From: Candidatus Methanoperedens sp.
Lineage (GTDB): Archaea > Halobacteriota > Methanosarcinia > Methanosarcinales > Methanoperedenaceae
Assembly (NCBI GenBank): GCA_012026795.1
Contig: VEPM01000008.1
Coordinates: 62,001 to 126,000 of the forward strand
DNA length: 64,000 bases
Direction: 5' to 3'
Shown here: positions 1 to 7,816 of the stretch, one piece after another
Layout of the letters: every line of letters begins with the position of its first letter
Numbering within the stretch: position 1 is the stretch's first letter
The notes under the pieces: generated by a model
Seen by the model: only the letters and a program-made list of their open reading frames with translations
The model's database searches: none
What the model was told of the DNA's origin: nothing
Made by a program: the position numbers and the translations under genes

Positions 1-559
1 TTATTTTAAGTTCCATGGCGCTTTCGATGTTTATTGAATTCGCCACCGAATCGATCACGATCTTATTACTCCCGGTCTTATCAACTATCTCGATCTTTTC
101 CTGGCCTGATGAGTCATCAAGCACTATCTTATGTTTCCCTTTAGTATGGATCTCGATTTTTTCCTTCATTGCGGTATCGTCATCATTAAAAATTATTTCA
201 TGTCCGCTTCTTGATTTGATCTTCCTGATATTATTCTTCCCATCGCTGTTGGTTTCGGGAGGTTTATCCTTTCCATTCCAGAGAGATCCGATGACATATG
301 GCTGGTTTATATCCCCGTGCTCAAATGCCACCAGCACTTCGTCATCAACTTCAGGATAAAAAACCATACCTCTTTCGTTTCCTGCCATGGGGCTTGCGAT
401 TCTTGCCCAGTAGCTTTCATCCTTTTCTCCTCTCCATGGAAAATTGATCTTGATCCTGCCGAGTCCTTCTGTATCCTGGTTGCTTGTGACCACAGCTATT
501 ACCACGCCATATATGTGACTGTCCTGCTGTGGACGCGGCAGCAGGTCTTGCATGCTCAT
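1..559 (-). CDS. eCIS spike/baseplate V protein (gpV/gp5/VgrG-like), partial
   Basis: This gene is open at the left edge; about 186 codons are visible. Its ATG (557-559) overlaps the stop of the upstream hub gene in an ATGA arrangement, so the two are translationally coupled. The N-terminal part (residues about 15-95) reads as the OB-fold of phage baseplate assembly protein V: YGVVIAVVTSNQD, LGRIKINFPW, YWARIASPMAG, GMVFYPEVDDEVLVAFEHGD and YVIGSLWNGKD are the usual signature runs. After it come short repeats alternating Lys/Glu and hydrophobic residues (for example IEIHTKGKHKIVLDD), as in the triple-stranded beta-helix of VgrG/gp5 spikes. The likely role is the membrane-piercing central spike under the hub. 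The C-terminus lies outside the window, so a fused effector or PAAR domain cannot be judged. Confidence 0.9.
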   Translation of the reverse strand, partial: MSMQDLLPRPQQDSHIYGVVIAVVTSNQDTEGLGRIKINFPWRGEKDESYWARIASPMAGNERGMVFYPEVDDEVLVAFEHGDINQPYVIGSLWNGKDKPPETNSDGKNNIRKIKSRSGHEIIFNDDDTAMKEKIEIHTKGKHKIVLDDSSGQEKIEIVDKTGSNKIVIDSVANSINIESAMELKI

Positions 560-1629
560 AAAATACTCCTTCGCACAGTGATGGTGGTTTTATAACCCGC
601 ATCGCCTATGGAATGCGTCGCTTTTGTTATGTAATATACGCCGCTGAACCGTTTCCCGACTTTTTCAATATTTACCGTTATTCCGGGCCGGAGTGAAGAA
701 TCACCGATACATTCAAGCATACCTTCAATGAAACCTTTATTCCTTCTTTTTAATTCTGCTTTTGCAAGGTTCTTTGCTTCTTTCTGGGATCGTACAAGCC
801 TTCCTTCAAGCTTTACATCCACTTTTGTTCCATTGGACTGTTCTATGATGCTATCAAAATCAGGGTTCCCAACGCTGCTCTTGATATCACTGATCGTGGC
901 GGATTCGGAGATACTTTCTTTATCCTTTATGTTCCAGGCCGTTACATGTACTTCATTTACAAGCGATGCAGTGGTCATCCGCGGATTGAAATTGATGAAA
1001 TTTTTCCTGAACTCGAAAGTAAAATCTCCCCCGATGTTATCTCTGGGCTCACGAAAGTACAATTCTTTATTCCTGATGAAAAATTCATAACCAATCTCAT
1101 TAGAAAGCCTTTTTAAGAGATCATAATCCGTTTCATTTTTTATCCGTTCAACCTTCCCATGAGTTATTTCCGTGGGATCCACCTTTGCCGAAAGGCCATT
1201 TGCCTGTGCGATCTCCTGTGCGATCGTTGAGTAAGTTACTTCCGTATCAGTAAATTTTTTTGCTGTCTTTTGCATATCGTGTGAATGATCATAACCTTCA
1301 ACGCTAAGCGTTGGATTGCCGGTTGACTGGAAACCGGGTGTAAGTGCCTTGATTTTTCCTTTCATCATACCCTGTTTCTTTGATGTCGCATACCCGAAGA
1401 AAATCTCTACCTCTGTTCCGGGTTTGATCTTATCATCATCAAGCCACCTGAATTGCTGCGTCCGGATGTTGATCTCTTCATTTAATGACAGCCGGAACAT
1501 CGCAGGACTTTCCAGGTCTTCATCTATCTCAATATTTAAGATGCTCTCTTTTGGCGGGTATTCCTCGCCATTTTGTTTTATCTTAAATACGGGCGCATAA
1601 ATATCCATGCCTGAAATCGCTGTTGCCAT
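556..1629 (-). CDS. eCIS hub protein, phage late control gene D (gpD/gp27)-like
   Basis: This 357-aa protein belongs by pattern to the phage late control D / VgrG N-terminal (gp27-like) group. Characteristic stretches are FFGYATSKKQGMMKGKIKAL, SVEGYDHSHDMQKTAKK, the NETDYDLLKRLSNEIGYEFF segment and the closing GVYYITKATHSIGDAGY. In contractile systems such proteins form the trimeric hub joining the inner tube to the spike. In Afp/PVC systems gp27- and gp5-like parts are fused in one protein (Afp8/Pvc8); here they are two genes, as in P2-type phages. A good Shine-Dalgarno (GGAGTGAT) lies just upstream of the ATG at 1629. The gene sits 15 bases after the LysM gene and overlaps the spike gene by 4 bases. 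Function is inferred from family and position. Confidence 0.88.
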   Translation of the reverse strand: MATAISGMDIYAPVFKIKQNGEEYPPKESILNIEIDEDLESPAMFRLSLNEEINIRTQQFRWLDDDKIKPGTEVEIFFGYATSKKQGMMKGKIKALTPGFQSTGNPTLSVEGYDHSHDMQKTAKKFTDTEVTYSTIAQEIAQANGLSAKVDPTEITHGKVERIKNETDYDLLKRLSNEIGYEFFIRNKELYFREPRDNIGGDFTFEFRKNFINFNPRMTTASLVNEVHVTAWNIKDKESISESATISDIKSSVGNPDFDSIIEQSNGTKVDVKLEGRLVRSQKEAKNLAKAELKRRNKGFIEGMLECIGDSSLRPGITVNIEKVGKRFSGVYYITKATHSIGDAGYKTTITVRRSIL

Positions 1630-1644
1630 ATCATCACTCCAACA

Positions 1645-2280
1645 TTATTCCAGCGGCGGGATTGCCAATTCCGTACCCGGTTTTAAAGACCGTGGGTTAT
1701 AAATATTATTTTTTTCCGCAATAGGTCTCCACATATCAGGGTCGCCGTATTCCCTGTACGCTATAGCCCAGAGGCTGTCGCCCTGCTTTGCTATATACAC
1801 CTTTGTTTTATCAGGTGATTGGAGCTCCCTTTCCCGGCTGTTTAGCTGCATCTTGAATTCTTTCAATGTGATATTCAGTCTTGCCCTGACCGGTACCCCA
1901 TCGGAGTTGAACATTGTGAACTTTTTTGTCACCCGTTCAAGTACGCAATTAAAAGGTTCTTTAGGATCAAGCCCCCAGATAAATTGCAGGGGAGGCGGAG
2001 CATGGATCGTGGGATCGATATTTAAAAGATCAGTAAGCTGGCTGGTAATTTCCCTTACATCTGTTCCTTTTTCGTAAGTATCATAGAAAACCTCAATCGT
2101 GATCGTTCCGGCGTTTCCTTTTACAAACTGGAGATAAGGAGATTCAAGTCCCGGTATTGCTATTTCTGAGAATGTATTGCTCCTTTCCAGGGAGTATTCC
2201 GGAGGAAAATAGAGTATCTCTATCTGCTTACCCTTTTTATTCCCATCAAGTATTTTAATAAAACCTTTTTTCGGCTCCAT
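1645..2280 (-). CDS. eCIS LysM-domain tube/hub adaptor (Afp7/Pvc7-like)
   Basis: This is a 211-aa protein. The N-terminal 150 residues resemble the CIS tube-type domain of Afp7/Pvc7 (KGFIKILDGNKKGKQIEI, PPEYSLERSNTFSEIAIPG, LQFIWG, then FNCVLERVTKKFTMFNSDG). The C-terminal 50 residues are a LysM motif (VYIAKQGDSLWAIAYREYGD, WRPIAEKNN and a closing PGTELAIPP). In related particles such a protein caps the inner tube and connects it to the gpD hub. The LysM suggests a peptidoglycan/pseudomurein-binding ancestry, although LysM also occurs as a structural module in phage tails. Its ATG follows directly on the stop codon of the 564-aa repeat gene (TAA then ATG), so translation is probably coupled. 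Confidence 0.9.
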   Translation of the reverse strand: MEPKKGFIKILDGNKKGKQIEILYFPPEYSLERSNTFSEIAIPGLESPYLQFVKGNAGTITIEVFYDTYEKGTDVREITSQLTDLLNIDPTIHAPPPLQFIWGLDPKEPFNCVLERVTKKFTMFNSDGVPVRARLNITLKEFKMQLNSRERELQSPDKTKVYIAKQGDSLWAIAYREYGDPDMWRPIAEKNNIYNPRSLKPGTELAIPPLE

Positions 2281-3975
2281 TTAAATATACCCCCGTCTTT
2301 CTTTTTCAATAGTTATTTTCCTATCTAATAATTGATATACCTGGTCAGAAAGCTGCTTAATATCTATTTTACGCTTTATTTCCTCATCATGTAAAGTATG
2401 AACTGAATTTAACCTGTCTGTCACTGTCTGTTTTGCTTCCAGGGCAATCCTTTTTATTTCTTCTATTTCATATTTGATATTCTTATTTGTCTTAAAATGA
2501 AGATCAGAGTCATTTACAGGGATGCCTGGTTTTGCTACAGGTTCAGGATTTGCCTTTGCAGATAATGGCAGGTTAGTTTTGATAATTGATTTTGCGGATA
2601 CCCCTGATTTCGTGAAATCTCCTGCCTTCGTGAATCCTCCTGCTTTTGTGAAATCTCCCGGTGGAGAGATCTGGAGCATAGTTACCATACCAGGAACAGT
2701 CAGGCATGTTATTGATTTTAAAAATGATTTCAAATGTGAAAATATCCCTGTGTGTGAAATTCCTGAAAAATGATATTTTAATAATAAATGATTTACAGGA
2801 TTTGTGACCTGTTTATTCGTGACCCGGATATTTGCTGGTTGGTTATTTGTATATTGGATATTTGCAGGTTGGATAATTGTGGATTGGATATTTGTGTGCG
2901 GGACATTTATGTGCCGGATATTAACGGGGTGAATATGCATCAGGTTAATATTATCATCACCTGTAAGTTCATGGTCTGCTAATTCAATCCCCGGGAAAGA
3001 ATAATACGATTCCTGACGACCAGAACTTGTTTTGAAAAATTCCTGGGAATTTAAAGCGCCACCAACCATTGTCATGTTGTTTAGCAATAAATTCACCTGC
3101 GGTAAGATAACCTGGTATTTATTTTCCAATGTTGAATAGTTATCCGAGTTTAAAACCTTCATATTATTCCCATAATTTGTAAGCTGCTTTTTTACATTTT
3201 CAGACCTGGAAAAACCAAAGAAATCCTTAGTATACAAAGCACTGTCAACTGTTGTCATGCTGTTTAGCAATAAGTTCACATGTGGTAAGGTAACCTGGTA
3301 TTTATTTCCCAATATAATATAATTATTCAGGTCTGAAAAGTCCATATTATTCCCATAATTTGTAAGCTGCTTTTTTACATTTTCATGCCTGGAAAAACCA
3401 AAGAAATCCTTAGAATATAAAATACTGTCCATTGCCATGTTTTTTAGCAATAAATTCACATGTGGCAGCATAACATATTTAAATTGCGGGGTAGATATAT
3501 AATCGAATTCCGGTTTAGACCCATATCTGGATTCCGGGAAAAAACCCTGATGGAATTGATAATAGGATCCAGGAAATCGGGGATTTATTTTTTGAACAAT
3601 ATTATCCCTGCCGGAAAAAGAATTGTTTACAATCAGCTTTGAAACAATATTATGAAAATCCTTCCTATTAATGCCGCATTTTGATATTTCCGTTCTGTTA
3701 TAAGACGATAATATATTCCGGAAGTATTTTCCAATTCCGGACAACTTGAACACATTATTTATTCCACGTCCTGTTATCTGTGAAATTTTCAGATTATTTT
3801 TAGTATTGAATTGCAGGAGAACATTCAAATTTATCTTATTGGATATTGATTGCCCCTGGTTTTTGAAAAATATCATCAAAGGAAAGTCGTATGGATTTCT
3901 TTTGCTTTTATGATATCTGCCGGTGATCATGCGATGAAAATCCGGATCACTTAAATTGATCACTGGTTTAGCCAT
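2281..3975 (-). CDS. Repeat-rich 564-aa eCIS-operon protein of unknown function
   Basis: I do not recognise this protein. It lies inside the eCIS operon, 5 bases after tube protein 2 and directly before the LysM hub gene. Four zones are visible: a Lys/Asn-rich N-terminal 165 residues; three tandem units of 60-61 residues (about 168-335) built around HVNLLL, KDFFGFSR and NVKKQLTNYGNNM, the third degraded after its first 25 residues; a stretch of short Asn-Ile repeats (about 350-395: HTNIQ, ANIQYTN, ANIRVTN); and a short FTKAG repeat (GDFTKAGGFTKAGDFTKSG). The last 70 residues are charged and helical, probably a coiled coil. No signal peptide or membrane segment is seen. It is AT-rich, and the repeats look recently duplicated. 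A baseplate-peripheral or tube-associated structural role, or a cargo, are guesses from position only. Confidence 0.75.
   Translation of the reverse strand: MAKPVINLSDPDFHRMITGRYHKSKRNPYDFPLMIFFKNQGQSISNKINLNVLLQFNTKNNLKISQITGRGINNVFKLSGIGKYFRNILSSYNRTEISKCGINRKDFHNIVSKLIVNNSFSGRDNIVQKINPRFPGSYYQFHQGFFPESRYGSKPEFDYISTPQFKYVMLPHVNLLLKNMAMDSILYSKDFFGFSRHENVKKQLTNYGNNMDFSDLNNYIILGNKYQVTLPHVNLLLNSMTTVDSALYTKDFFGFSRSENVKKQLTNYGNNMKVLNSDNYSTLENKYQVILPQVNLLLNNMTMVGGALNSQEFFKTSSGRQESYYSFPGIELADHELTGDDNINLMHIHPVNIRHINVPHTNIQSTIIQPANIQYTNNQPANIRVTNKQVTNPVNHLLLKYHFSGISHTGIFSHLKSFLKSITCLTVPGMVTMLQISPPGDFTKAGGFTKAGDFTKSGVSAKSIIKTNLPLSAKANPEPVAKPGIPVNDSDLHFKTNKNIKYEIEEIKRIALEAKQTVTDRLNSVHTLHDEEIKRKIDIKQLSDQVYQLLDRKITIEKERRGYI
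2990..3475 (-). repeat. Three tandem ~180-bp coding repeats in the eCIS repeat protein
   Basis: Three in-frame units with a period of 180-183 bases start near 3471, 3291 and 3108 (minus strand). Units 1 and 2 are nearly identical over the KDFFGFSR...QLTNYGNNM part at DNA level (compare 3166-3226 with 3346-3406). Unit 3 keeps the VNLLLNNM start but then diverges. The length stays a multiple of three, so selection for an open frame is plausible. Confidence 0.85.
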
Positions 3976-3980
3976 TATTC

Positions 3981-4415
3981 TTAGCCCTTCTTGATACCGT
4001 GATGTGCAAGTTCAATAGTCTCAAATGCGACAGTATTACTGTCTGCTCTTAATTCCGGGCCTGTCCACTTGACCGGATATGCCTGTTCGAAATTCCAGCA
4101 CCATTTATCTTTGCCTGTGACATCCTGCAGGACAACAGTACCGTTTTTCTTCTTAAACTTACCACTTACCACTTCCTGGTACCATTTCCACATATCATCA
4201 AGATCAGAAATACCTCTTTTCAGGGTGATGTGCTGGTATTTTGTCCTTTTAGGAAGCAGGTGCACATAATCATTAACACCGCCCTCTTCATAGGATTCAG
4301 TTTCAGTTTCAAGTATAAGCCCTGTTACCTCTGTAACCTGCGCGACAGTAATTCCTCCGATCTCGATCCTGAACCTGAATGAAGTATATGGATATGGTTT
4401 ATTACCTGTTGTCAT
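3981..4415 (-). CDS. eCIS inner tube protein 2 (T4 gp19-like; Afp5-type)
   Basis: This 144-aa protein is of the phage tail tube family. It has the opening PYPYTSFRFRIEIGGI, the central YQHITLKRGISDLDDMWKWY and the ending AFETIELAHHGIKKG, all typical of contractile-system tube subunits. It is clearly homologous to the 147-aa tube protein at 5010-5453, with the same layout of beta-barrel strands but different loop residues. Having two tube paralogues, one next to the sheath (Afp1-like) and one nearer the hub genes (Afp5-like), matches eCIS loci, where the second paralogue forms the tube layer at the baseplate. No strong Shine-Dalgarno is visible before the ATG at 4415. Confidence 0.92.
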   Translation of the reverse strand: MTTGNKPYPYTSFRFRIEIGGITVAQVTEVTGLILETETESYEEGGVNDYVHLLPKRTKYQHITLKRGISDLDDMWKWYQEVVSGKFKKKNGTVVLQDVTGKDKWCWNFEQAYPVKWTGPELRADSNTVAFETIELAHHGIKKG

Positions 4416-4444: not shown

Positions 4445-4630
4445 TTAGACCTCAAGAATGCTTTTCTGTTTTTCTCCACTCAAACGCTGGTTTATCCTGG
4501 ATATCTCCTCGCACCACCTGTGTCTTTCTTTGTGTTCCATATTCAGGATATCTTCAGATGGCCAGTGGAAATGATATGCAATAAAAGCTACCTCCTCGTA
4601 CAACCTGTCAAGGGGGTAGCCTGCTATTCC
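4445..4630 (-). CDS. DUF6760-type small eCIS protein, in -1 frame to gpE, no canonical start
   Basis: An open frame encodes about 61 residues with the DUF6760 pattern: GYPLDRLYEEVAFIAYHFHW, then PSEDILNMEHKERHRWCEEI, ending KQKSILEV before TAA at 4445-4447. The conserved part begins at once after the gpE stop region, yet between the upstream in-frame stop and GYPLDRLYEE there is no ATG, GTG or TTG (codons read GGT AGA ATC CCG GGG GGA ATA GCA GGC). The first canonical start is a TTG at 4601-4603, which would cut off the conserved GYPLDR. The frame is -1 to that of gpE and joins it at a run of six G. I therefore read it as either the frameshift extension of gpE or a gene with an unusual start (ATA at 4625-4627). 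Confidence 0.75.
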   Translation of the reverse strand, partial: GIAGYPLDRLYEEVAFIAYHFHWPSEDILNMEHKERHRWCEEISRINQRLSGEKQKSILEV

Positions 4631-4638
4631 CCCCGGGA
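4624..4638 (-). promoter_or_regulatory. Possible -1 ribosomal frameshift site between gpE and DUF6760
   Basis: On the minus strand the last gpE codons are TCC CGG GGG GAA TAG. The six-G run is 4629-4634. A tRNA on GGG can slip one base back and re-pair perfectly, moving translation into the DUF6760 frame just before the stop. The layout recalls the gpE/gpE+E' and G/GT frameshifts of phage tail chaperones. A seventh G would fuse the two ORFs outright, so a homopolymer assembly error is the main alternative. Confidence 0.5.
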
Positions 4639-4989
4639 TTCTACCTCAAATTCAAATTGGTGCTGGCATTTGGGGCATTCTGTTTTTATTTTACCTGATC
4701 CGTTTTCATTGATACGCCTGTAGAAATCCTGCAGGTAAGATAAATCTGATGCAAACAGGTTCTCGATCACCTTTGTATTTATTGCCTTTATATCTCCCAG
4801 CTTTGTGATAACTCTTGAAAATAATATCACAGTCAGATAAGCCGGGTTTGTCTGCACTCTTGCATCCTTTAAAGGAAGGATCTCATCAGCGGCGGTTGCA
4901 AGACGCATAATGCCTTTCTTATGGAGATTCCCATCCTCATCTACATACCCTTTCGGTAAGGTGAACTCAAATTCTGTCTGAAACGCCAT
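4624..4989 (-). CDS. eCIS tail assembly chaperone-like protein (gpE/gp41 type)
   Basis: This 121-aa protein follows tube protein 1. The N-terminal half has the pattern of phage tail assembly chaperones E/41/14: FEFTLPKGYVDEDGNLHKKG, MRLATAADEILPL, then NPAYLTVILFSRVITKLGDI and LFASDLSYLQDFYRRIN. The C-terminus carries a CPKCQHQFEFE segment, a CxxC knuckle that could hold half a zinc site. In P2-like phages this protein is made in two forms through a -1 frameshift and assists tail-tube or tape-measure assembly; the same is possible here because of the adjoining DUF6760 frame. It starts 20 bases after tube protein 1. Family assignment is by sequence pattern; the chaperone role is inferred. Confidence 0.82.
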   Translation of the reverse strand: MAFQTEFEFTLPKGYVDEDGNLHKKGIMRLATAADEILPLKDARVQTNPAYLTVILFSRVITKLGDIKAINTKVIENLFASDLSYLQDFYRRINENGSGKIKTECPKCQHQFEFEVESRGE

Positions 4990-5009: not shown

Positions 5010-5453
5010 TCATTTGACCCGTTTAAATCCTTCGTGGACTATTTCAAGGGTTTCTATCGCAACTTCATTTCCCTTCCCGCTGAAATCAGGCGGATCATAT
5101 TTGCTTGGCCATGCAGACTCGATATCCCACCGGGATTTATCTGACCCTGCTTCATCTATCAGGGTTATGGATATGTTTTTCCGTTCTTTTTCCGCCCCTG
5201 CGTCTATAACTCTCTGTCTCCATTGATACAGGTCCATCGAATCAGTAATACCCCATTTGAGGGTGATGTTCCCGTATTTTGTTAATCCCGACAGTTTCCG
5301 GAATCGCGGGGGCTCATTTCCTTCACGGTATTCAACAGGATCTGTTGTTGTGTCAGCAAAAGTACATTCGCTAAAACCTGCCTGTGAAATTCCATCTATC
5401 TCAACACGGAACCTGAACTGCCTGTACGGATCTTTCCTATCTCCAGTAGCCAT
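5010..5453 (-). CDS. eCIS inner tube protein 1 (T4 gp19-like; Afp1-type)
   Basis: This 147-aa phage tail tube family protein opens with DPYRQFRFRVEIDGISQAGF and SECTFADTTTDPVEYREG, continues with KYGNITLKWGITDSMDLYQW and ends ETLEIVHEGFKRVK. It is the expected main inner-tube subunit, stacking as hexameric rings inside the sheath. A strong Shine-Dalgarno (GGAGGATAAAT before ATG) fits high expression. It lies 57 bases downstream of the sheath gene, the usual partner. Length agrees with Afp1/Pvc1-type tubes. Confidence 0.93.
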   Translation of the reverse strand: MATGDRKDPYRQFRFRVEIDGISQAGFSECTFADTTTDPVEYREGNEPPRFRKLSGLTKYGNITLKWGITDSMDLYQWRQRVIDAGAEKERKNISITLIDEAGSDKSRWDIESAWPSKYDPPDFSGKGNEVAIETLEIVHEGFKRVK

Positions 5454-5510: not shown

Positions 5511-7064
5511 TTACTCAGTAGCAGAAGAGCCTCCAGCCCATTGAGCGATACGGAATATTACGAACTCTGCGGGCTTGACAGGAGCGATGCCGATAATGCA
5601 GATCAGTCTTCCGTTATCTATATCGTCCTGCGTCATGGTAGTCCTGTCGCATTTGACAAAGAACGCTTCTTCAGGTTTTGTTCCCATGAGTGCGCCATCT
5701 CTCCATACGCGTGTGAGGAACTGGGTTATTGTTGCCCTGATCCTTGCCCAGAGTTTTTCGTCATTGGGTTCAAATACTACCCACTGTGTGCCTTCTTCTA
5801 TGGATTCCTCTACAAAGATGAACAGGCGCCGGACATTTATATACTTCCAGAGAGCATCGCTTGATAGTGTCCGCGCTCCCCATATGCGTATCCCTCTTCC
5901 CGGAAATGCACGAATCACATTTACCCCGCGGGGATTAAGGATACCCTGTTCTCCTTTTGTTATCTGGAACTCAATATCCATTGCCCCGCGAACCACTTCA
6001 TTTGCCGGGGCTTTATGTACGCCGCGTTCAACATCGCTGCGGGCATATATCCCTGCCATGTGACCTCCTGGCGGGATTAACTTACTCTTACTAGTCAGGG
6101 GATCAATGACCTTTATCCATGGATAATAGAACGCAGCATATTTTGTGTCAAAATTATCACGGGGCTTAATATTACCTACATTACTGCTCCCGTCATCAGT
6201 ATCTATGATAGCGAAACGATCCTTCAGTTCTTCACAGTGGCTTATGAGAGCCGAAACAAGACCTGATACCGAATTTGCATCGGGAGAATAAACAATGGAA
6301 ATTTCATCTATCTCTTTAAAAGCCGTTAATCCTTTTCTGCTGCCAGGAATATTATCTTCATTCGAGTCGCGCAAATAATCATCTATACCCAGGGCAGTCC
6401 CATCAAGATCAGTTCCTCCCAGGGGTGTTACCGCAACCGGGCCATTTGGCAAATTCCCGGAATCACCAGCCTGGCTGGAAATGGTAATCAAACTGGATAT
6501 CCCGTTAATCTTTTTATCATAGTGGTCAGGCGAAGCATGATCTATTGACAGGTTGTCATAAAATTCGACCTGTGCAGGCTGAGGCTTTGATTTTTTATCT
6601 GTTTCCGGATCGAACAAAGTCGATGGGACCGCATCTTTCCAGTAGAATACAGAAAGTTTGAACAATGGTTTTGCTGCCGTATTATCTGTTCCTGTTCCCA
6701 CTTTGACAACTATCCTTTTTCCCCACTCGCCTTCCCCGATCGCATCTATTGTCAGCGCATTTGCGCCTGCGCTGGTAAGTTTAAGGGATGCTTTTGCGGC
6801 ATCATTTGCAGCCACTCTCCCTATAAAGCATCGCTGGCCCCCGTTCATAAAAAAACCATCTACGGCATAGGGTAGATATGAACCTGCGATATAGCTTCCA
6901 TACATTCTCTGGAATTGGAGCCAATTTGTGACCAGTTGGGGAGTGGTGGGTCCGCGTTCGGTTATCCCGAGGAATCCAGCTGTACTTGTGCTGACCCCTT
7001 CTATCGGTTTTGCTCCTATCTCAAATTCTTCTACATATACACCCGGTGTTAAATATTCTGGCAT
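5511..7064 (-). CDS. eCIS contractile tail sheath protein
   Basis: This 517-aa phage tail sheath protein starts with the classical LTPGVYVEEFEIGAKPIEGV and STSTAGFLGITERGP. It has the middle block YYPWIKVIDPLTSKSKLIPP followed by GGHMAGIYARSDVERGVHKA, and ends in the conserved C-terminal core (NVRRLFIFVEESIEEGTQW, FEPNDEKLWARIRATITQFL, GALMGTKPEEAFFVKCDRTT). Sheath subunits wrap the tube and drive injection by contraction. Only one sheath gene is present in this window, while Afp/PVC systems carry three. A very strong Shine-Dalgarno (AGAAGGAGG) precedes the ATG, and an AT-rich stretch upstream could hold its own promoter. Confidence 0.96.
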   Translation of the reverse strand: MPEYLTPGVYVEEFEIGAKPIEGVSTSTAGFLGITERGPTTPQLVTNWLQFQRMYGSYIAGSYLPYAVDGFFMNGGQRCFIGRVAANDAAKASLKLTSAGANALTIDAIGEGEWGKRIVVKVGTGTDNTAAKPLFKLSVFYWKDAVPSTLFDPETDKKSKPQPAQVEFYDNLSIDHASPDHYDKKINGISSLITISSQAGDSGNLPNGPVAVTPLGGTDLDGTALGIDDYLRDSNEDNIPGSRKGLTAFKEIDEISIVYSPDANSVSGLVSALISHCEELKDRFAIIDTDDGSSNVGNIKPRDNFDTKYAAFYYPWIKVIDPLTSKSKLIPPGGHMAGIYARSDVERGVHKAPANEVVRGAMDIEFQITKGEQGILNPRGVNVIRAFPGRGIRIWGARTLSSDALWKYINVRRLFIFVEESIEEGTQWVVFEPNDEKLWARIRATITQFLTRVWRDGALMGTKPEEAFFVKCDRTTMTQDDIDNGRLICIIGIAPVKPAEFVIFRIAQWAGGSSATE

Positions 7065-7225: not shown

Positions 7226-7816
7226 TTATGGAAAAGCTATTTTCCCCAGCGATACGGTTTTTCCTTCATCTAAATTTGTTTTTACTGTTTTTGATTTTCC
7301 GTCTTTCTTAAATTCAATCGTAATTTTTTTATTTTTGACATCCTTGAAATACAGGACGAATTCCCCATTAGCATCAGAAATAGTTTCTATTTCAGGCTTT
7401 ACTGCTTTAATATTTACATTTGCGGTCAGGTTCATATCGGGATTAGACAACAATCCCCTGGCAAGGGTTGCATTAGCCGGGAAAGGATAGGATGGCAGGG
7501 GTTTAAGTAATATTTCAAGGACAGGATTTTTTGGATCAAGAAGAGAGGGATTCACGGTCAATTCCCGGGAATAGTATATTTTTGATTTTACGCTAACTGT
7601 ATTATTACCAGCAGGCATATCCGTAAAAATATAATACCCACCGGGATTTTTTATCGCTTTTTGATTTTCTTCCCCGTACATCACTTCTATATAACCGATC
7701 GGCTCTTCTCCGGTGTAATCATCCTTAAGACGGATTGCAAGAGAAAGGCGTGTGATAATGATATCGCCTTTATAGGAAACAAATGTATCCGTAATATAAG
7801 GCTGGACAGGAAGCAT
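7226..7816 (-). CDS. eCIS-operon protein with carboxypeptidase-regulatory-like beta-sandwich domains
   Basis: This is a 196-aa protein with no signal peptide. Its body reads as two beta-sandwich modules. The first (about 25-105) has GGYYIFTDMPAGNNTVSVKS, typical of the carboxypeptidase regulatory-like fold. The second (about 115-190) has ISDANGEFVLYFKDV and a DEGKTVSLGKIAF ending. It lies between the cap gene and the sheath gene, with its ATG directly after the cap stop, so it is part of the operon. In a particle it could decorate the outer end or the cap, but this is inference. No catalytic residues are visible. Confidence 0.75.
   Translation of the reverse strand: MLPVQPYITDTFVSYKGDIIITRLSLAIRLKDDYTGEEPIGYIEVMYGEENQKAIKNPGGYYIFTDMPAGNNTVSVKSKIYYSRELTVNPSLLDPKNPVLEILLKPLPSYPFPANATLARGLLSNPDMNLTANVNIKAVKPEIETISDANGEFVLYFKDVKNKKITIEFKKDGKSKTVKTNLDEGKTVSLGKIAFP

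Follow-up and report, generated by a model that had tools for sequence, protein, structure and literature searches.

What sets the length of a contractile injection system (CIS)? The particles of Streptomyces coelicolor are all 268 nm long with 60 tube layers, and their describers note that the tape measure gene is missing (PMC12237407); more broadly, the papers on the S. coelicolor and haloarchaeal CIS did not find a tape measure, nor, in the case of archaea, a plug (PMC10066040, PMC11566945, PMC12237407). CIS-like clusters, known as phage-like protein-translocation structures (PLTS), have already been described in Methanoperedens-type archaea (PMC9012536). Here, we analysed a 64,000-nucleotide stretch of Candidatus Methanoperedens sp. 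(contig VEPM01000008.1; hereafter the window), focusing on the gene at window positions 2281-3975 in the core of a CIS operon. We call this slot gene and its family gene X. Judged by its sequence relatives and its place in the gene order, gene X is a widespread, previously unrecognised component of microbial CIS, and with moderate confidence we consider it best read as the tape measure that the recent papers report missing.

In phage P2, the sheath gene FI and the tube gene FII are followed by E/E′, by T (a 'putative tail length determinator'), and by U and D, and in phage Mu the order is sheath, tube, tail assembly chaperone and tape measure. Such chaperones work together with tape measures in length determination (PMC5099701). 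The operon in the window is reminiscent of this layout, reading sheath, first tube protein, gp41-type chaperone, DUF6760, second tube protein, X, CIS_tube/LysM protein and hub. We propose X as a tape measure because its slot follows chaperone-type genes and precedes GpU/hub-like genes, as in P2 and Mu. After the chaperone pair and before the GpU/hub genes is where P2 gpT, Mu gp42 and the TP901-1 TMP are found; what differs is the extra tube gene that, outside Streptomyces, stands between the chaperones and X. Nor is X an orphan: nearly every archaeal CIS of this type that we examined has a same-slot counterpart. Throughout an order set of 28 loci, window included, the arrangement sheath - tube1 - gp41 - (DUF6760) - tube2 - X - LysM - hub is kept wherever the contig reaches. 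The X stop codon abuts the LysM start codon in the window, and across the order set the end of X adjoins that start or overlaps it by 1 nt in 25 of 28 loci (27 of 28 when gaps of 0-4 nt are included).

The X open reading frame (ORF) is intact, with an ATG start, 564 amino acids (aa) and no internal stop. Its parts, with repeat periods from Tandem Repeats Finder (TRF), are the following:
2281-3975, minus strand: gene X, variable-length protein, proposed tape measure/plug (ORF calls; same-slot family in 28 archaeal loci)
3853-3939, minus strand: N-terminal conserved motif, aa 13-41, FHRMITGRYHKSKRNPYDFPLMIFFKNQG (alignments)
3066-3465, minus strand: 61-aa tandem array, TRF period 183 nt, 2.2 copies
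2813-2922, minus strand: 5-aa Asn-Ile-type repeats, TRF periods 15/30 nt
2603-2658, minus strand: 6-aa FTKAG-type repeats, TRF period 18 nt, 3.1 copies
2287-2484, minus strand: C-terminal helix, aa 498-563 (AlphaFold2 single-sequence model)
2284-2370, minus strand: C-terminal conserved core, aa 536-564, KIDIKQLSDQVYQLLDRKITIEKERRGYI (alignments)

Within the family, conservation is limited to the N-terminal motif (pattern FxxxIxxKY......lPxLIFxR) and the last ~40 residues (pattern ..INxIADxVYxxIERRIxIEKERRG, with V546 and E557 unchanged in all aligned relatives), and the middle differs from lineage to lineage. Conserved termini around a repeated middle of variable length recall phage tape measures; in TP901-1, both ends of the protein are needed and deletions in the repeated middle shorten the tail proportionally (PMC5099701). 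The middle of X is rich in repeats: six of the nine tandem-repeat entries for the whole 64-kb window fall into the 1.7-kb X ORF, with periods of 183 (score 577), 30, 30, 15, 15 and 18 nt. All six are divisible by three, as the original prediction had it, and the short Asn-Ile and FTKAG repeats are likewise as described there. Of the three 60-aa units it listed, the tandem repeat itself was recovered, with units of 60/61 aa, in two full copies and a half rather than three. The coiled coil it placed at the C-terminus is supported by the AlphaFold2 model, poor overall, in which residues 498-563 form a single helix (pLDDT, the predicted local distance difference test score, about 54-72) and residues 1-504 score below 50.

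Is this elasticity a property of the family? Searches were made in 100 relatives with X, in the same set with the LysM gene, and in a 393-genome phylum sample with the C-terminal profile. Overall, family members range from about 250 aa, the length of the shortest one in bacteria, to the 2,319 aa of Haloferax larsenii. Complete copies in the order set have 371-905 aa. Elsewhere in the phylum, haloarchaea included, slot ORFs have 366-2,154 aa; two loci yielded no slot candidate. The coefficient of variation in length is 0.26 for X vs 0.01-0.09 across six genes beside it. Tandem arrays were seen in 17/28 X genes vs 6/167 neighbour genes, and nearly all repeat periods are divisible by three. The comparison of repeat number between relatives that had been called for revealed differences of whole blocks. 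The closest relative (L071; LysM protein 96% identical) lacks one 58-aa block of the window's X, two near-identical loci of one genome (L066 and L070 of G083) carry about two and three copies of a 104-aa repeat so that their X proteins differ by 104 aa, and between haloarchaeal relatives the differing blocks measure 110-166 aa. The H. larsenii frame (plasmid pHl5678-1, L122 1860-8819) is open over its full length and ends beside the LysM start; the database record does not list it as one gene and annotates short fragments only, an example of how under-annotated gene X is.

Charge and partners set X apart, too. Its median net charge of +0.046 per residue is the highest among the genes compared in the order set (-0.005 to -0.032 for the others), and even in the acid-rich haloarchaea X is more basic than LysM in 20/20 loci. 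CIS tube lumens are negatively charged (PMC8894135, PMC8894136), which suggests, as far as composition can tell, that X is suited to lie in the lumen as a chain. DUF6760, of which we found no mention in the literature searched, accompanies X in each of the 38 X-bearing archaeal genomes tested; seven genomes lacking X do not encode it, and neither does genome G042, which has only a short plug-like gene in the slot. Both gp41 and DUF6760 are missing from L123, L126 and L127, two short-plug loci and one without a slot gene; the chaperone-less bacterial loci are those of Streptomyces clavuligerus and Cereibacter, with a short plug-like gene, and of Treponema, with no slot gene. G042 itself encodes an archaeal two-sheath CIS (L067/L232) with a short plug-like gene, no gp41 or DUF6760, and a 713-aa gene beside the ATPase. 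The latter resembles Afp14 by eye, but Pfam gave no match and we did not take it as evidence. CIS_TMP (PF19268), the Afp14-type tape measure of AFP-type eCIS (extracellular CIS), did not exceed its cut-off in any of the 42 archaeal genomes with a CIS, G042 included, and Pfam did not match it to the window's X; the short-plug locus of Cereibacter has a sub-threshold CIS_TMP match beside the ATPase. X would share with Afp14 the proposed role in length control, and differs from it in sequence and in slot, that of Afp14 adjoining the ATPase.

Counterparts extend into bacteria. With a hidden Markov model (HMM) of the archaeal C-terminus, slot proteins were retrieved from Nostoc (4e-15), Paenibacillus (6e-12) and Rhizobium (1e-10), and Embleya gave a weak match (0.001). 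In Paenibacillus cellulosilyticus (L124 6419-8961), as in L075 and L076, X is split by a stop or frameshift, which may reflect either a sequencing error or real inactivation. The CIS of Streptomyces and Actinomadura encode, between DUF6760 and the second tube gene, a Pro/Ala-rich basic protein of 970-1,434 aa that ends in LDELxxRLxGxxxRLLRTELRxDRERxGRLRD. The Streptomyces protein has the look of X, but as its similarity was not significant (hhalign P 0.002-0.016; HMM search at background), we treat it as a counterpart by position.

This protein allows a first look at length. With a tube rise of 3.85 nm (PMC10066040), the 60 layers of S. coelicolor amount to a computed 231 nm, and the slot proteins of complete-locus species whose Cis7 is 92-97% identical to that of S. 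coelicolor have 1,300-1,357 aa. The quotient is 0.170-0.178 nm per residue, a single data point based on the genes of relatives and not on S. coelicolor's own. TP901-1 deletions (347 aa, 53 nm; PMC5099701) give about 0.153 nm per residue. If the Streptomyces protein is accepted as a counterpart, its ratio would be close to that of phage tape measures, at about 0.15-0.17 nm per residue. Under such a rule, a tube of about 96-100 nm (25 rings) is predicted for the window's X. Particle dimensions are also on record for R. castenholzii (217 +/- 16 nm when extended; PMC12998442) and for Anabaena 7120 (22 tube rings; PMC8894136).

Given its position, its partner genes and its form, X is in our view probably the tape measure of clade II CIS. 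In the mechanism we envisage, the C-terminal helix would be anchored at the tube base, in the cavity of hub and tube initiator where other systems have the short Cis6/Alg6 plug; the gp41/DUF6760 chaperone pair would load the protein, its basic and mostly unstructured middle would thread the negatively charged lumen, and the tube would stop growing once the whole of X is spanned. The syringe would then become longer or shorter as in-frame repeats are gained or lost. That X lies in the lumen, binds the chaperones and controls length is what the data suggest, and it may in addition act as the spike plug. More tentatively, X could represent a new class of tape measure, in archaea and several bacterial phyla, in which a single chain, largely unstructured and basic rather than helical, combines plug and ruler. 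If true, repeat number in X sets the length of the injection machine, which would explain how clade II CIS reach a fixed length without Afp14 and make particle length predictable from sequence; a gene in a fixed slot also renders the missing-ruler question experimentally tractable. Among the three roles originally suggested, the tube-associated ruler is the one best backed by the slot, the upstream chaperone genes, the conserved ends with their elastic middle, the charge and the Streptomyces length. A peripheral ring found no support, and a cargo tether is retained among the alternatives below without being favoured over the ruler.

Several observations weigh against a tape measure. X has no sequence or profile match to any known one (Pfam, PHROGs, NCBIfam), and unlike in the helical phage proteins its middle is rich in Ser, Thr, Pro and Asn, a composition that argues against helix there, and is not confidently predicted as helical. 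The Streptomyces protein behind the length argument is the one without significant homology to archaeal X; in the structure of the S. coelicolor CIS no such protein is modelled (PMC12237407), and the lumen appeared mostly empty in an S. coelicolor cargo mutant whose particles are otherwise normal (PMC10066040). Halogeometricum borinquense may not fit the ratio: contracted sheaths measure 220 nm there and are heterogeneous in length (PMC11566945), and at 0.17 nm per residue this would need about 2,900 aa, as against 2,319 aa in the largest haloarchaeal X seen. Finally, a 1,064-aa eCIS_core protein encoded downstream matches PHROG tape-measure families (E=5e-12).

Could X instead be an enlarged spike plug? 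Both of its ends would then sit at the hub/tube initiator, with the loop between them filling the lumen or tethering cargo, and length would be set otherwise. The X slot is the Cis6 slot, between the second tube protein (Cis5) and the LysM initiator (Cis7), and short plug-like genes occupy it in L126 (59 aa), L123 (70 aa) and the archaeal L067. The plan is alike as well: Alg6 of AlgoCIS begins with a strand, continues as a flexible loop and ends in a helix, and forms an assembly-essential trimer touching Alg7/Alg8 (PMC8894135), the Cis6 loop of tCIS extends into the tube lumen (PMC8894136), and X has an N-terminal element, an enormous middle and a C-terminal helix. Known Cis6/Alg6/Afp6 plugs are short, however, while X has about 250-2,319 aa and comes with chaperone-type genes, and an enlarged plug does not account for why X strictly accompanies gp41/DUF6760, why no other tape measure is recognised and why the ratio agrees at 0.17 nm per residue. 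No sequence link to solved plugs such as Alg6/Cis6 was found, as PDB searches with the X C-terminal profile, Nostoc X and the short plug-like proteins gave no hit; because the short plug-like proteins also match nothing, this search may not reach plug chains at all. X may be Cis6 by slot and plan, an identity unproven by sequence, but we deem it rather unlikely that X is a plug without a role in length.

It is improbable, in our view, that the real tape measure is the downstream eCIS_core (DUF4157) protein, with X as an accessory. That protein, encoded beyond the window in the same genome (L061:1014-4208), has matches to many PHROG tape-measure families, the best with the E-value given above, and Tme, a comparable DUF4157 effector of Streptomyces davawensis, has been proposed as tape-measure-related (PMC11126660). 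Yet long amphipathic or hydrophobic helices yield unspecific matches of this kind, the gene lies far from the chaperone genes, DUF4157 proteins are usually regarded as cargo, and particles of the S. coelicolor triple cargo mutant (sco4256-4258) are otherwise normal (PMC10066040). Tme and X have in common that each is a tape-measure-like protein proposed for a CIS, in the case of Tme that of Streptomyces, but X has no DUF4157 or nuclease domain, and in the window operon DUF4157-type proteins are encoded separately. X might also be cargo, either an effector to be injected or a structural filler of the lumen, which would fit a long, poorly structured, fast-evolving and possibly lumenal protein. 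It nonetheless occurs once per core operon of structural genes in these loci, has conserved ends, is tightly juxtaposed to the tube-initiator start in the 27 of 28 loci noted above, and carries neither a toxin or enzyme domain nor DUF4157/eCIS_core, so we hold this to be very improbable. Hardly credible is a decaying or mis-assembled gene with neutral repeats. The ends are shared and the middle is poorly conserved, and X is split by a stop or frameshift in two of the 28 relatives (L075, L076), but many genomes carry it intact, at lengths of up to 2,319 aa, and its repeats nearly always have periods divisible by three. Its ratio of nonsynonymous to synonymous substitution rates (dN/dS) is 0.3-0.6 in close order-set (Methanosarcinales-type) pairs and reaches 0.79 for one pair of haloarchaea, as compared to 0.06-0.18 for LysM and hub. 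By this measure selection on X is relaxed but constrained, and the decay by frameshift raised as an objection to the original prediction is not borne out, X being intact in most relatives. In Pfam, PHROGs, NCBIfam and PDB profile searches X resembled no known eCIS protein, just as first stated, nor did tblastn find it in phages; its C-terminal alignment retrieved nothing in protein-family searches, and a kinship of its ends with a known baseplate protein was looked for without a match.

The neighbours that define the slot of the proposed tape measure are as follows:
2-559, minus strand: spike gene, start only, running beyond the window edge
556-1629, minus strand: baseplate hub, YQBQ/GPD-like (Pfam, weak GPD match)
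1645-2280, minus strand: tube initiator Cis7, CIS_tube and LysM domains (Pfam PF19266, E=8e-26)
3981-4415, minus strand: second tube protein, gp19-type (Pfam PF06841, E=4e-42)
4445-4603, minus strand: DUF6760 gene, TTG start, 52 aa, proposed second half of a tail-assembly-chaperone pair (weak Phage_P2_GpE match, E=0.028)
4624-4989, minus strand: gp41-type tail assembly chaperone (PHROG_508 'tail assembly chaperone', E=5e-8; Gp41_Mu, E=0.02)
5010-5453, minus strand: first tube protein (Pfam)
5511-7064, minus strand: sheath (Pfam)

The LysM tube initiator has weak similarity to P2 GpU (Pfam, E=0.005) and PDB relatives 7b5h, 9gtp and 7aeb. Genes for PAAR, gp25 and baseplate J come after the spike gene, outside the window. 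Between the sheath and a Pvc16-type cap lies a CarboxypepD_reg protein (7226-7816, minus strand), with a counterpart in the Nostoc and S. clavuligerus loci. The window also has cytochrome genes, as would suit a Methanoperedens-type methane oxidiser. Elsewhere in the same genome, the eCIS_core protein at L061 1014-4208 combines its tape-measure-like region with a sub-threshold Ntox1 match and is a candidate cargo, and L061 7558-11094 encodes a fibre-like protein of 1,178 aa, in which CarboxypepD_reg domains are combined with tandem peptide repeats at the C-terminus (CLAGKPDNTIT, VVDRP).
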